64,000 nucleotides of DNA, taken from assembly GCA_000702685.1 (NCBI GenBank), contig JNJD01000011.1, positions 1 through 64,000 on the forward strand. Reading direction: 5' to 3'. Under the pieces are notes generated by a model that made no database searches, was not told where the DNA came from, and saw only the letters and a list, made by a program, of their open reading frames with translations. Shown one piece after another: positions 48,161 to 53,436 of this stretch; positions within the stretch are counted from its first letter, which is position 1; each line of letters opens with the position of its first letter. Position numbers and translations under genes: made by a program. This DNA is from Lachnospiraceae bacterium AC2028. GTDB taxonomy: Bacteria; Bacillota; Clostridia; Lachnospirales; Lachnospiraceae.

Positions 48161-51076
48161 TTACAGCAGACTCTCAACGGTTCCGAAAAGATTTTCATTC
48201 TCTCTGATGAGTGTTTCGTTACCGACCACAAAAAGCTTGTTGTCGGCCATGAATTCCCTGATGTAATCCGCCATCTTTCTCATATCGGCAGGTGTACAGT
48301 CGAGAACACGGTCACGCTGTTTCTGGACCTCTTCGAATGTGACTCCCGTCATATATGCCGCAAAGCTTCTCGCGCCTCTTGCGGAGGGGGTGAGCGGAAT
48401 GTCAAGTTCACTCACGGTTCCAATGATCAGTTTGGTCATTTCCCGTTCGTCTGCATCGAAGGCTGCAACATCGTCTGCTGCCCCTTCATATACATCGACG
48501 GTTTTTGTAAGGTTCGGGTCACGGTATGAAACAAAAAATGCAGATCCGTTCATTCCGTAATTATTCATGACTCCGTAGGCACCGCCCTTAACCCTGACAT
48601 TAACCCACAGATAATTGTATCCGAGATAGACCTTTAATACCTTCAGAACGCCGTCATACTCAAGTCCGTTCCTGTTGAAAAGTCCGGCCCTGCAGACATA
48701 AACGACCTGTCCCGACGTGGTCAGTCCCTCATTCTTTTTGATAAGTTCGATATTCTTTTTCGCAGGACGGTGCTTTTCGGTATAAAGCTCATCCTTGAAT
48801 GCGCGGATCCTCTCTTTAAGCTTGTCGGCCTCCTCGCGGCTTCCGGTGTAATCAACGATAAGATTCTCGGATCTGAAGATAAGGCCGGTCACATAAGTCA
48901 GGCATTCCTGCATATTGCCCTTTGCGGAATCATAATCATTAAGCAGGCTGCAGATGAACCTGTAATAAGATACGCCCGACATCAGCTCGTTGTACGCAGC
49001 TTCTTTCGAAACGGATGCAAGGGCTCTGGATGATGCAACCGAATGTCCTGCGGAAAGGAAAGAGGACTGCATTCCGTTCTTGATCTCACCGAGGATCTCC
49101 CTGATCCTCTTAAGATCCTTGAACTTCGAAGTAAGAAGTATCTCCCTGAACAGATCGAATGCTTCGTCAGATCTTTCAAAGAAGAACTTTCCTCTCATCT
49201 CAAAAGTAGCGGTGAATTCATCGTTTTTCCCAAATATGGGATAATGCTCGGTGGATACGGAAAAACCGCCCATGCACAGGTCGATCAGAGGACTGAGTTC
49301 CTCATATTTATGCCTGTCGGTATCGACCATCGACAGAATATCCCTCAGGAGTCCCACGTAAGGAACGAATTCGGTGCCGATCTCATCAAGCTTGAACGCA
49401 AGTCTAAGATATCCGATCCTTCTTGTATCGACATCGTGGAATACAAAAGGCATTCCGTCCACATCTGATACCTCATTGCTGTAGGGCTCCGCTTCTCTCT
49501 TAAGATCACTTCTTGTGAGCATCGGAAGCGAATTGATCGCAGCTTCGGAATCGGGTGTATCCCTGAATTTATCGAGCTTTTCCTTGATGGTATCGATGGC
49601 TCTCCTTTCATCGGGAGAAAGTCTCTCCTGAAGTATGTCGAGTTTCTTGCGAAGCTCGCTCTCCTTGGCTTCGAGAACGCCTTCGGTGGGACGAACGCTG
49701 ACATAGCTCTTATGCTTATTGCCGATCAGGTATTTTCTGACAAGCTTCTCGTAATAACCGGTATCGATATTTTCCCTGAGGAAATCGAAATCATCACCGG
49801 CAACGATATAATCAAAAGGCTTCGTATCGTCATACAGCCAGGAATCATACATGTTCAGGCAGTACATAAGTCCCTTCGGATATCTTCCGTAGTCAGCTTC
49901 CCTGTAACGGAATTCCGCAGAATCTATCGCAGCCCTGAGCGCATTCTTATCAAAGCCCTTCTTCGCAACGGTTTCGATGGTCTCGGTAATGAGCTGGCCG
50001 AACCTGGTCTCCATGCTCATTGCGGCATCCTTGCCTATGATGCTGTAGAAAGGCTGTCTTACCGATGTCTCGAAACGGCTGGACACATCACCGACGACGC
50101 CCTGCTCGATAAGGATCTTACGCAGTGGCGCACCGGGATATGAAACCAGTGCATAATCAATGACATCGAAGGCACGCCTGGTCTTGCCGTCGAGTTCCGC
50201 ATCAAGTGCGAAATTAACGGAAAAGAAAGTGTTCTCATCGGCATTTTCGCCCTGAGAAAGAGGACACTGCTTATTCACATGTACAGGCTGATTGAAAGGT
50301 GCCTGGATCTTTATGGTCGAATCAATATCGAGCGCAGAAAATCTGGACAGGTACTTTCTGTCGATGAAATCCAGATTCTCCGCCATATCAAGATTTCCGT
50401 ACAGCAGAATGTATGAATTCGAAGGATGGTAATATTTCCTGTGGAAATCAAGGAACTGCTCATATGTCAGAGCGGGAATGCAGTCGGGATCTCCGCCGGA
50501 TTCAACGCTGTAAGCCGTGTCCGGGAAAAGAGAGAACATCGATTCCGATGAGATGATATCTTCGGCAGAAGATCTTGCACCCTTCATCTCGTTATAGACG
50601 ACACCGTTAATGATGAGCTTTCCGTTCTCATCATATTCATAATGCCATCCTTCCTGCCTGAATATACTCTCGTTCTTATAGACATTGGGATAGAAAACCG
50701 CATCAAGATAAACGTGCATCAGATTTCTGAAGTCCGCATCATTGGTACTCGCGATCGGATAAACGGTCTTATCCGGATATGTCATTGCATTTAAGAATGT
50801 ATTGAGCGAACCCTTGACGAGCTCGACAAATGGATCCTTGAGAGGGAATTCCCTCGATCCGCAGAGAGTGGAATGTTCGAGTATATGCGCAACACCCGTC
50901 GAATCGGTGGGCGGAGTCCTGAACGCGATCGAAAAGACTTTGTTATTATCATCATTTTCGATCAGGCATACTCTCGCACCGGTCTTTTTATGGACCATCC
51001 TGTAACCGACGGACGCGATATCCGCAAGATCGTATTTTTCAAGTATCTCATAGCTTTTAAGCTTTTCAAGTTCCAT
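48161..51076 (-). CDS. M16C metallopeptidase (presequence protease-like)
   Basis: A 971-aa insulinase-superfamily zinc peptidase of the PreP/Cym1 type. The inverted zinc motif HILEH is in GVAHILEHSTLCGS (about residues 61-74), with the distal Glu in the following helices, and the C-terminal half repeats the inactive M16 fold with Tyr/Arg catalytic helpers. Such proteases degrade unstructured peptides in a closed chamber; here it is probably cytoplasmic as no signal peptide is seen. The start at 51076 follows AAAGGAA. It belongs to a four-gene operon with unknown 139-aa, sigma-like and rhomboid-like genes. Confidence 0.92.
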   Translation of the reverse strand: MELEKLKSYEILEKYDLADIASVGYRMVHKKTGARVCLIENDDNNKVFSIAFRTPPTDSTGVAHILEHSTLCGSREFPLKDPFVELVKGSLNTFLNAMTYPDKTVYPIASTNDADFRNLMHVYLDAVFYPNVYKNESIFRQEGWHYEYDENGKLIINGVVYNEMKGARSSAEDIISSESMFSLFPDTAYSVESGGDPDCIPALTYEQFLDFHRKYYHPSNSYILLYGNLDMAENLDFIDRKYLSRFSALDIDSTIKIQAPFNQPVHVNKQCPLSQGENADENTFFSVNFALDAELDGKTRRAFDVIDYALVSYPGAPLRKILIEQGVVGDVSSRFETSVRQPFYSIIGKDAAMSMETRFGQLITETIETVAKKGFDKNALRAAIDSAEFRYREADYGRYPKGLMYCLNMYDSWLYDDTKPFDYIVAGDDFDFLRENIDTGYYEKLVRKYLIGNKHKSYVSVRPTEGVLEAKESELRKKLDILQERLSPDERRAIDTIKEKLDKFRDTPDSEAAINSLPMLTRSDLKREAEPYSNEVSDVDGMPFVFHDVDTRRIGYLRLAFKLDEIGTEFVPYVGLLRDILSMVDTDRHKYEELSPLIDLCMGGFSVSTEHYPIFGKNDEFTATFEMRGKFFFERSDEAFDLFREILLTSKFKDLKRIREILGEIKNGMQSSFLSAGHSVASSRALASVSKEAAYNELMSGVSYYRFICSLLNDYDSAKGNMQECLTYVTGLIFRSENLIVDYTGSREEADKLKERIRAFKDELYTEKHRPAKKNIELIKKNEGLTTSGQVVYVCRAGLFNRNGLEYDGVLKVLKVYLGYNYLWVNVRVKGGAYGVMNNYGMNGSAFFVSYRDPNLTKTVDVYEGAADDVAAFDADEREMTKLIIGTVSELDIPLTPSARGARSFAAYMTGVTFEEVQKQRDRVLDCTPADMRKMADYIREFMADNKLFVVGNETLIRENENLFGTVESLL

Positions 51077-51099
51077 AGCGGTTCCTTTACTGTCAAAGG

Positions 51100-51519
51100 T
51101 CATACGGTAAGAAGAGCCAGTTTGCTTCCCTTCAATTCCTGTATGACAACACCAAGTTTCTTCTTGTCTTCTTCACTGATGGAAACAAGTTCCTTAATGC
51201 CGATGTACTTTGTGACATAGCTTTCTTTTTCTTTTCCGAAAAGGGACTTCTTCCTGCTGAGCATGCTGACGCGGACCTGTGCACCCATCTGCTTGAGAAC
51301 CTGGAATACGAAATTCCCGGGCTCAAGATAATACAGCACCGTTTCGAGCGTATCCGTTTCGGTGAATTTCGGGAGGATGCTCTCTGCGGTCACCTTGCGG
51401 AATTTAAAGAGAATATCCTCACACTCGGTTATCTCCCGTAAGGTATACTTGCTGCCCACATAGAAATATCCGGCATCCTGAAGAAAGTATTTATAATCTT
51501 CGTAAGTCTGCTTCGTCAC
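51100..51519 (-). CDS. Conserved protein of unknown function (139 aa)
   Basis: I do not recognise a domain. The protein is soluble, mixed alpha/beta and charged, with no signal peptide or membrane helix; it begins MTKQTYEDYKYFLQDAGYFYVGSKY. Its ATG overlaps the sigma-like stop by four bases and its end lies 23 bases before the protease start, so it is translated together with them and is likely to be in the same pathway. Confidence 0.7.
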   Translation of the reverse strand: MTKQTYEDYKYFLQDAGYFYVGSKYTLREITECEDILFKFRKVTAESILPKFTETDTLETVLYYLEPGNFVFQVLKQMGAQVRVSMLSRKKSLFGKEKESYVTKYIGIKELVSISEEDKKKLGVVIQELKGSKLALLTV

Positions 51520-52331
51520 GACTGTCTGTCATCCTCAATGCATTCTATCTTGTATCCGCTTATCTCCATCGCTTCCCTGACGGCTTTTTCGGAGATTCCG
51601 GCGAATTCTGCAACTTCCTTCACGGTGACCTTTCTTTCAAGTTCTTCCGCAAGCTCCATTGCCTTGTCATAGACCTTATTGGTCTTTTTAAGTATCTTGT
51701 CTTCAAGGTCGCCTTCGGAAGAAGCTTCATGTATCAGCTCTTCCATCGCGTCCATCACAAGCTTCATAAGAAAGCCTTCGCAGTCATCCGGCTTTTCCTG
51801 GGAATCGAGTATAGACACGCCGCGCACAAGGGCTTCGTTGCCTTCCCCGATAAGATCTTCGAGAAAAACTCCCTGTCCCGTATAGATACGTGCAATACCG
51901 ACTATGTCCTTGAGATAGCAGTTTATGAGCTTCTCTTTGGATCGTTCCTCACCCGCCATCGCGGAGATCGTAAAAGCGATCTTTTCACCGTCCGAATAAA
52001 CGGGAAGTTCATCAAGGCCTTCAAGATAAGCGTTGAGATAATCCGTATCTATATCATCGAGCGCAAATTCAGATATCACCGCTTCGTTCTCGGAAGGAGT
52101 GACACCGTCAAGCTCTATGTCGTCTGCGGGTATCGCGGTCTCGGATACGTTTATCTCGAATCGGATCCCCCTGCCCTTCAGATAATCGAAGACCATGCCG
52201 GTCTTCTCCTCATCAAGCTCAAGAGGAGCGAGCATTTCAAGTATTTCGTTTTTATCGATATATCCGCCCTGAACGGCTGCCTTGCGGCGTAATTCTTCGA
52301 GCGTTTTTCCGAAAAGTACTTCTTTATCCAT
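51516..52331 (-). CDS. Sigma-70-like protein lacking promoter-recognition regions
   Basis: A 271-aa protein resembling the core-RNA-polymerase-binding part of a housekeeping sigma factor. A sigma 1.1-like segment (8-60), region 1.2 (93-125), regions 2.1-2.2 (130-175; LINCYLKDIVGIARIYTGQG, LEDLIGEGNEALVRGV) and region 3.0-3.1 (208-262; RKVTVKEVAEFAGISEKAVREAM) are visible. The aromatic -10-melting residues of regions 2.3-2.4 are missing, replaced by an unrelated helix, and region 4 is absent. It likely binds RNA polymerase without recognising a promoter. One base separates it from the rhomboid-like gene. Confidence 0.75.
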   Translation of the reverse strand: MDKEVLFGKTLEELRRKAAVQGGYIDKNEILEMLAPLELDEEKTGMVFDYLKGRGIRFEINVSETAIPADDIELDGVTPSENEAVISEFALDDIDTDYLNAYLEGLDELPVYSDGEKIAFTISAMAGEERSKEKLINCYLKDIVGIARIYTGQGVFLEDLIGEGNEALVRGVSILDSQEKPDDCEGFLMKLVMDAMEELIHEASSEGDLEDKILKKTNKVYDKAMELAEELERKVTVKEVAEFAGISEKAVREAMEISGYKIECIEDDRQS

Positions 52332-52332
52332 T

Positions 52333-53325
52333 TTATCCCCTTACATGGGTGTGTGTGAAAAGGTGTGTCTGGCAGTATTCGTAATTACCCGCGCATTTGG
52401 AGCAGTATCTGAATTCCATGTCCGGATCCGAAACCTCGGTCTTTCCGCAGATCGCACATTTATGCCTTGTCTGCGGACGTGCGTTCATCTTGACATCGGA
52501 TGTCGATGAAGTAACGCCTCCCGTATTCCTCGTCCTTCCGGCATTGGCAAAGCCTCTCTTATATTGCCTGTTGAAGGCATTCTGTCTGTGTATCTGTCCG
52601 GGATTAAGATTAACGCCTCTGATATTGGACAGGTAAAAGATAAGGCAATTGATCAGAGCGGCGATGACCGCAGCTTTTTCGGGTAGATATCCCTTCAGGA
52701 AAATATAGATAAGATACACGGTATCGAGAATACCGAGCCATTTCATCTTGACCGGGAGAATGAAGTAAAGCCTGACGATATCGTTGGGATATGTCATGGC
52801 AAAGACTATATATATGGAAATATTGATGTAATAAGTGCTGAAAGCAAACCAGTCGACCGCCATATTGGCGTTTTCGAGGGCCACAAGCGCGTCAAAATCA
52901 TTGGAGACGAACAGGATTCCCAGATAAACGAAGGCACAGACGACCGCCAGCAAAATGCCCGTAAAGATGAAGATATTGTATTTTACGGTTCCCCAGGTCC
53001 TCTCAAGGATATTTCCTATGGAATAACAGCAGAAAAGCATCAAAAGGACAAAGAACAGCCCCAGCGGATCGCTTCCGAGCATATTGGGAGGGATGATGAC
53101 CCAGGTAAAGAGCCTCCAGACCTGACCGTGAAGGATCTTGTAGGGATCGAGCGACAGCCAGTACAGAAATGAGCTGTTTACCATGGATATCATATATCCG
53201 ATGACATACCCGGCGATAAGCCAGAGGGTAAGATTGGGAATGGCATACTTACGTAATTTATTACTGAATCTGCTCAAGACAGTTATCTCCTTGAAAAAAC
53301 TATAAATCCTGTAAAAGTTTACCAT
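52333..53325 (-). CDS. Rhomboid-like pseudoprotease with C-terminal zinc ribbon
   Basis: About 330 aa with six hydrophobic helices (about residues 35-250) and the rhomboid topology, including LHGQVWRLFTWVIIPP where rhomboids have their WR motif. The catalytic Ser (GxSG) and His residues are not found, so it is probably a pseudoprotease like derlins. The tail has a basic linker and a zinc ribbon CAICGK...YCSKC...C...H (about 285-325). The start is either ATG 53325 (AAAGGGG upstream) or TTG 53277, which has the stronger AAGGAG site; the shorter form keeps all helices. Confidence 0.75.
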   Translation of the reverse strand: MVNFYRIYSFFKEITVLSRFSNKLRKYAIPNLTLWLIAGYVIGYMISMVNSSFLYWLSLDPYKILHGQVWRLFTWVIIPPNMLGSDPLGLFFVLLMLFCCYSIGNILERTWGTVKYNIFIFTGILLAVVCAFVYLGILFVSNDFDALVALENANMAVDWFAFSTYYINISIYIVFAMTYPNDIVRLYFILPVKMKWLGILDTVYLIYIFLKGYLPEKAAVIAALINCLIFYLSNIRGVNLNPGQIHRQNAFNRQYKRGFANAGRTRNTGGVTSSTSDVKMNARPQTRHKCAICGKTEVSDPDMEFRYCSKCAGNYEYCQTHLFTHTHVRG

Positions 53326-53436
53326 TTTTCCCCTTTTTAAACAAGGCAAGGCCCCCCTGCTTAATAAAAGTTTAATGCACAGGCTGCGATGCGAATGAAC
53401 CCCTTTGCCCGGCCTTCCCGCGGGCGTTAAAAAAAG

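Follow-up and report, generated by a model that had tools for sequence, protein, structure and literature searches.

The window analysed here, the 64,000-nucleotide stretch at positions 1 to 64,000 of contig JNJD01000011.1 from Lachnospiraceae bacterium AC2028, carries on its minus strand a head-to-tail row of genes with almost no spacing between them, which encode in turn a rhomboid-like membrane protein (RHOM), a sigma-like protein (SIGL), a protein of 139 amino acids (P139) and an M16C/PreP-like peptidase. RHOM and SIGL are separated by 1 nucleotide, and the end of SIGL and the start of P139 share 4 nucleotides (GTGA). Beyond the peptidase lie genes that we take, from their sequences, to be DUF4349, era and recO. 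A scan for promoters and terminators found them in numbers at the level of shuffled sequence. SIGL (51516-52331, minus strand; 271 amino acids, ATG start) is, judged by its alignments, a diverged paralogue of RpoD/SigA that shares a common origin with it, is colinear with it from region 1.1 to region 3.1, and ends before regions 3.2 and 4.

Relationship of SIGL to RpoD/SigA

A profile of SIGL made from 23 of 30 sequences of the genus, with near-duplicates and fragments excluded, matched Bacillus subtilis SigA (7ckq_F) at 1e-21, residues 2-259 of the query being colinear with residues 8-260 of SigA. In Pfam, Sigma70_r3 matched SIGL at 1.1e-7 and passed its cut-off, and Sigma70_r2 matched at 1.5e-4 with 22 bits, below the cut-off of 24. 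The NCBIfam model for RpoD (PRK09210) matched at 9.1e-16, yet with 58.1 bits against a cut-off of 572, and PADLOC and PHROGs gave partial sigma matches only. A region 1.1-like domain with three predicted helices (about residues 3-56; 52164-52325, minus strand, as are all the following segments) was found by profile-profile comparison with a probability of 98.3 over 57 columns, against 0.1 each time when the unrelated P139 alignment was used as a control in two comparisons. It is followed by a region 1.2-like segment colinear with SigA (about residues 93-126; 51954-52055), by regions 2.1-2.2 (about residues 129-172; 51816-51947), in which the motif EDLIGEGN is encoded at 51837-51860, by a replaced and acidic stretch corresponding to regions 2.3-2.4 (about residues 173-209; 51705-51815), and by regions 3.0-3.1 (about residues 210-259; 51555-51704), which are supported by Sigma70_r3 and by the column table of the alignment. 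Structure prediction gives a sigma-2 fold.

Residues were counted in an alignment of 35 close relatives of SIGL (clade A), 8 distant relatives (clade B) and 19 RpoDs, the last from 20 loci, of which one (L103, a 1-kb filler stretch) gave none. Clade B comprises the eight loci without RHOM nearby, a division made in the present analysis. Positions follow what we take to be the E. coli numbering, anchored on YKFSTYATWW. In region 1.2, the RpoD residues G371, D372 and A375 are kept in more than half of clade A, and L356, E361, L364, A365 and K376 in less than one-third. In regions 3.0-3.1, N461, L470, R476 and E482 are kept, and H455 and E458 are replaced. At the other end of the protein, columns 522-530, the last printed, are gapped in all 43 rows of the two clades, the longest of these 43 proteins has 304 amino acids, and the Pfam scan gave no region 4 match beyond residue 259 of SIGL.

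SIGL was found in all 31 genomes of the genus, its own included, and in none of them with an internal stop, although contig ends truncate the copies in G019 and G029; because of this conservation it is not a chance open reading frame. Together with the profile match to SigA and the match of region 1.1, this rules out chance similarity or artefact.

Docking and promoter-contact faces of region 2

Four residues of region 2.2, D403, Q406, E407 and N409, are reported in PMC8321222 to contact the coiled coil of the beta-prime subunit of RNA polymerase. Clade A keeps three of the four (D403 in 35/35, E407 in 34/35 and N409 in 35/35 proteins), and clade B keeps all four, each in 8/8. Across the SIGL alignment D403, L404, I405, E407, G408, N409 and L412 are nearly invariant. 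Among columns that are invariant in RpoD, clade A keeps 11 of 20 in region 2.2 versus 3 of 30 in regions 2.3 and 2.4 (Fisher p 9e-4), and clade B keeps 12 of 20 versus 2 of 30 (p 6e-5), with the reservation that the columns are not independent. The region 2.2 signature of SIGL, as far as alignment can tell, is largely retained. The docking face is nevertheless also altered in clade A, because Q406 is replaced by G and L402 by E, each in 35/35 proteins, and because the mean net charge of positions 379-416 falls from +2 to -2.8.

These changes can be compared with those in other sigma factors. In nine alternative sigmas from this genome and from G372, position 402 is D or E in all nine, position 406 is Q (five) or S (four), and zero to three of the four reported contacts are shared, so that the three of clade A equal their best; the nine include three loosely aligned proteins out of the five other sigma-2 matches of the own genome, and with these D403 is kept in 8/9 and no net charge is below -1. 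A 271-residue sigma factor on a viral contig (locus L221, 2998-3813) carries the identical EDLIGEGN together with VWW and what looks, by eye, like a region-4 end. Because the alternative sigmas and this viral-contig sigma show similar residues, L402E and Q406G alone do not exclude docking, and the docking-face changes of clade A differ little, on this comparison, from those that seemingly functional sigmas can accommodate. The overall count of EDLIGEGN, 120 of 130, cannot be taken as an unbiased frequency, because 80 of the 130 were fetched by a scan in which EDLIGEGN was one of two patterns; the 35 clade A and 8 clade B sequences came from whole-protein or profile searches.

On the promoter-contact face, no examined contact is retained in more than 6/35 clade A or 3/8 clade B proteins. 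The counts for the two clades are 0/35 and 3/8 for F427, 0/35 and 1/8 for Y430, 1/35 and 0/8 for W433, 0/35 and 0/8 for each of W434, Q437 and T440, 0/35 and 1/8 for H455, and 6/35 and 1/8 for E458; position 425 is aromatic in 0/35 and 1/8. In clade A, D stands in place of Q437 in 34/35 proteins and E in place of T440 in 33/35, replacements that, on these counts, are not random. Mean net charge of positions 417-458 is +3.5 in the 19 RpoDs, -6.3 in the 35 clade A proteins and -4.1 in clade B, compared with -1 to +5 in eleven other sigmas (the nine alternative sigmas compared above and two RpoDs, from the same two genomes). Since the contacts are replaced, the surface is acidic, and regions 3.2 and 4 are absent, it is implausible that SIGL reads or melts a promoter.

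A sequence-only reading of this gene had described a protein with segments matching regions 1.1, 1.2, 2.1-2.2 and 3.0-3.1, without region 4, that would not start transcription, and the profile and alignment results agree with it on each of these points; sigma homology was found, and intact regions 2.3-2.4 and 4 were not. Its description of regions 2.3-2.4 as missing has to be corrected, because this stretch is, in the alignment, of full length and substituted rather than deleted. Its statement that aromatic residues are lacking there holds for the promoter contacts, which are lost, but not for every position: position 430 is F in 15/35 clade A and 3/8 clade B proteins, including SIGL of the window, and position 434 is F or Y in 6/35 and 1/8. 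By the number of aromatic residues alone, clade B (1-4) and six alternative sigmas (2-4) overlap. The wider proposal of that reading, a protein that occupies polymerase as a possible anti-initiation or storage factor, is partly supported.

Distribution, selection and neighbouring genes

Of 396 family genomes sampled, 198 matched the SIGL profile at 1e-25, RpoDs included. Matches down to 4.6e-33 lie in frames of at most 358 amino acids, in 95 genomes, and the first frame of at least 368 amino acids appears at 1.4e-30; with 20 of these loci opened, the figure of 95 SIGL genomes is an estimate. In a sample of 295 genomes of the order, matching genomes of other families carry one match each, except G533, G628 and G643, which carry two, and both matches of G533 are of RpoD length. 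A scan of genome contigs confirmed at least 576 relatives. By title, the best 80 of these comprise 59 from Lachnospiraceae, 10 from Acetatifactor, Blautia, Butyrivibrio or Parablautia, and 11 with another or no placement. The viral scan, one of eight scans, gave six relatives on viral contigs, of which one, the L221 sigma described above, was opened; a phage origin of SIGL was rejected, this relative having both WW and a region-4 end recognised by eye.

In a tree of 18 of the 35 clade A proteins, the 8 clade B proteins, 19 RpoDs and 7 others, clades A and B form one group with a support of 0.97 when all columns are used and 0.68 when positions 417-458 are omitted, clade B being a grade within which clade A lies. 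From this we infer a single origin of SIGL followed by a move beside RHOM. The ratio of non-synonymous to synonymous substitution rates (dN/dS, Nei-Gojobori) was calculated for 17 pairs of SIGL genes. One pair was not computable and the other 16 gave 0.013-0.113, values that are rough because dS is above 1 in many pairs; for P139 and RHOM the constraint is mostly somewhat weaker. SIGL is under strong purifying selection. The loss of promoter contacts by sequence would fit a decaying pseudogene of an rpoD duplicate, and three matches in the wider family (G076, G354 and G331) do contain one internal stop each. The low dN/dS, however, makes a decaying duplicate very unlikely, and the intact frames throughout the genus and the fixed acidic substitutions also speak against one, so that this explanation can practically be discarded.

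Locus counts were taken from the fetched loci of the best 80 of the at least 576 relatives. RHOM lies upstream of SIGL in 78/80, P139 downstream in 79/80, and the peptidase was found in 68/80, some loci ending early. The sequence-only reading had placed the gene with a membrane pseudoprotease and a peptidase, but it had passed over P139, the best-linked neighbour. The peptidase (48161-51103, minus strand) matched the Pfam families M16C_assoc at 6.6e-63 and PreP_C at 7.5e-51.

P139 (51100-51519, minus strand; GTG start) is a candidate partner of SIGL. Among 49 genomes with P139, 47 contain SIGL, in all 47 within 500 bases. The confident model of P139 resembles a flavoprotein-type domain, the FAD-binding subunit of the CO dehydrogenase/xanthine dehydrogenase family (molybdenum hydroxylases), although sequence homology to such domains was not found. 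Among the 48 members aligned, out of 118, there was no match to any Pfam sigma family (E up to 0.1), a sequence search of the PDB gave nothing useful, and comparison with a viral fold library gave nothing at E 0.001 or better.

RHOM (52333-53349, minus strand; start codon uncertain) was aligned from 43 of 113 sequences. Its matches to Pfam families are weak (Rhomboid in 6/43, DUF1751 in 3/43 and DER1 in 2/43 members), and it adds to such proteins a C-terminal Cys/His (zinc-type) module that is invariant. In an active rhomboid protease, the catalytic serine lies in Gly-x-Ser-Gly; this motif was not visible in the consensus of 113 or of 43 RHOM sequences when read by eye, no motif search having been made. 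A sequence search of the PDB with RHOM gave GlpG and ribosomal L37Ae at E 0.2 or worse and one unrelated match at 0.13. RHOM is a near-universal membrane protein of the family (378/396 genomes). Of the 63 SIGL genomes listed for which RHOM coordinates were available, 14 do not have the two genes side by side, and 18 of 19 readable further RHOM loci (of 20; L200 was left out) have no adjacent SIGL, the sole exception, G329, having been picked for an already known SIGL match. Ten RHOM-adjacent SIGL genes occur in genomes without a P139 match.

Possible roles of SIGL

A docking side that is mostly kept, an acidic promoter side, a kept region 1.1 and the loss of regions 3.2 and 4 are together best explained if SIGL occupies the sigma site of RNA polymerase, or a partner shaped like that site, without initiating. 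Between these, we tentatively favour, with slightly more doubt than belief, a conserved non-initiating primary-sigma paralogue that docks on core RNA polymerase. SIGL would bind through its sigma-2.2 surface to the beta-prime clamp coiled coil, its acidic 2.3-2.4 face would then repel or mimic DNA, and the DNA channel could be occupied by its 1.1-like domain. Polymerase would thereby be kept from SigA or from promoters, which would make SIGL an anti-initiation, loading or parking factor, and P139, with RHOM in close relatives, would control SIGL or tether it to the membrane. The full form of this model, a membrane-linked complex of SIGL, RHOM and P139 by which Lachnospiraceae would park or gate their core polymerase, with a DNA-repelling or DNA-mimicking face, possibly under the control of P139, is rather unlikely.

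Several observations weigh against docking on polymerase. Changes at the region 2.2 contacts are reported in PMC8321222 to do no more than weaken binding, so that the kept contacts are not strong proof of docking, and the docking face itself is altered in clade A by Q406G, L402E and the fall in charge. Clade A has also lost a large part of region 1.2. The predicted structure is of moderate quality (mean pLDDT 75.8, pTM 0.48) and leaves the joint between sigma-2 and sigma-3 uncertain. Roughly one-half of the genomes sampled from the family lack a match at 1e-25, and in other families of the order only RpoD-length matches, and no short members, occur among the matches listed, short members being seen in the window's own family only. 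Moreover, linkage to a membrane protein fits a partner other than polymerase about equally well: the linkage of SIGL with RHOM and P139 means that the sigma-2 surface may bind P139, RHOM or an anti-sigma factor, much as the sigma-like domain of PhyR acts on NepR, and SIGL would then be a sigma mimic acting outside polymerase, as a membrane adaptor or in a partner switch. This is a serious possibility, though one that we would expect to fail rather than to hold. The neighbourhood of RHOM and P139 in nearly all fetched loci and the adjacency of SIGL in almost every P139 genome favour it, as does the occurrence of Q406G in all 35 clade A proteins and in 0/8 of clade B, given that the clade A loci that were opened adjoin RHOM and those of clade B do not. 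Against such a mimic, D403, E407 and N409 of the docking signature are nearly invariant, no anti-sigma gene was recognised among the neighbours of SIGL (open reading frames of the window, Pfam), and in some genomes, as counted above, SIGL stands beside RHOM without a P139 match, or apart from RHOM.

Two further explanations keep SIGL on polymerase. It might be a post-initiation factor that sits on the clamp of elongating or paused polymerase, like a retained sigma, without touching DNA. Docking residues that are mostly kept beside replaced DNA contacts would suit this role. A region 1.1 domain is expected to sit in the DNA path of polymerase, however, and the kept 1.1-like domain would accordingly be expected where the DNA runs, and this role is quite improbable. 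Alternatively, SIGL might supply regions 2-3 of a split sigma, with P139 or another protein giving the function of region 4, in an active holoenzyme for unusual promoters. There are precedents in which sigma parts are carried by separate small proteins, SigO-RsoA (PMC10141391) and gp55-gp33 of phage T4 (PMC2988020), the latter supporting transcription, and the small P139 gene has its first 4 nucleotides in common with the end of SIGL. In contrast to these systems, the -10 surface of SIGL is acidic and its contacts are lost, and P139 shows no sigma match, region 4 included, and has a flavoprotein-like model; a region-4 protein may be encoded elsewhere, but a split sigma is more improbable still.

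Of other sigma-like proteins, the sigma-like domain of PhyR, the anti-anti-sigma factor of the alphaproteobacterial stress response, is described as an antagonist and not a sigma. Unlike PhyR, SIGL is RpoD-like with a region 1.1, and no receiver family was found among its seven Pfam matches (E up to 1); none of the 50 structure matches listed for SIGL is PhyR-like, which excludes nothing. MzaA, a sigma-like protein of the MZA defence system, has a short match to SIGL over regions 2.1-2.2, which covers about 50 residues of a model of about 700 and scores 28 bits against a cut-off of 800, short of a full-length match. No description of the SIGL protein was found in the titles and abstract beginnings that full-text searches of one open-access library listed.

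If SIGL does bind polymerase, it would be a sigma-derived inhibitor or parking factor that arose by gene duplication and is widespread in an abundant gut family, and it would serve as an experiment of nature on which sigma surfaces are enough for docking and as an entry point to the growth control of gut commensals. If it has another partner, it would be a rare case of a sigma fold leaving transcription. In either case, automatic pipelines are likely to annotate SIGL genes as sigma factors and so to skew sigma counts.

Some observations concern RpoD itself. In G372, a second rpoD copy (L078, 12-1967) lies downstream of a clade B SIGL and a gene that we take to be dnaG-like. This copy (G372:C1 2274565-2314673) is split by a stretch of about 39 kb, with a recombinase-like open reading frame beside the N-terminal half, and an intact rpoD lies at 2489875-2490711. 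The RpoD of the window's own genome (L085, G000:C6 near 500117-500806) is extended at its N terminus by about 300 residues, a large part of which are KPAAKAAP-type repeats; the extension is reminiscent of histone H1, and open frames of 598-763 amino acids occur at the RpoD matches of nine other members of the genus.
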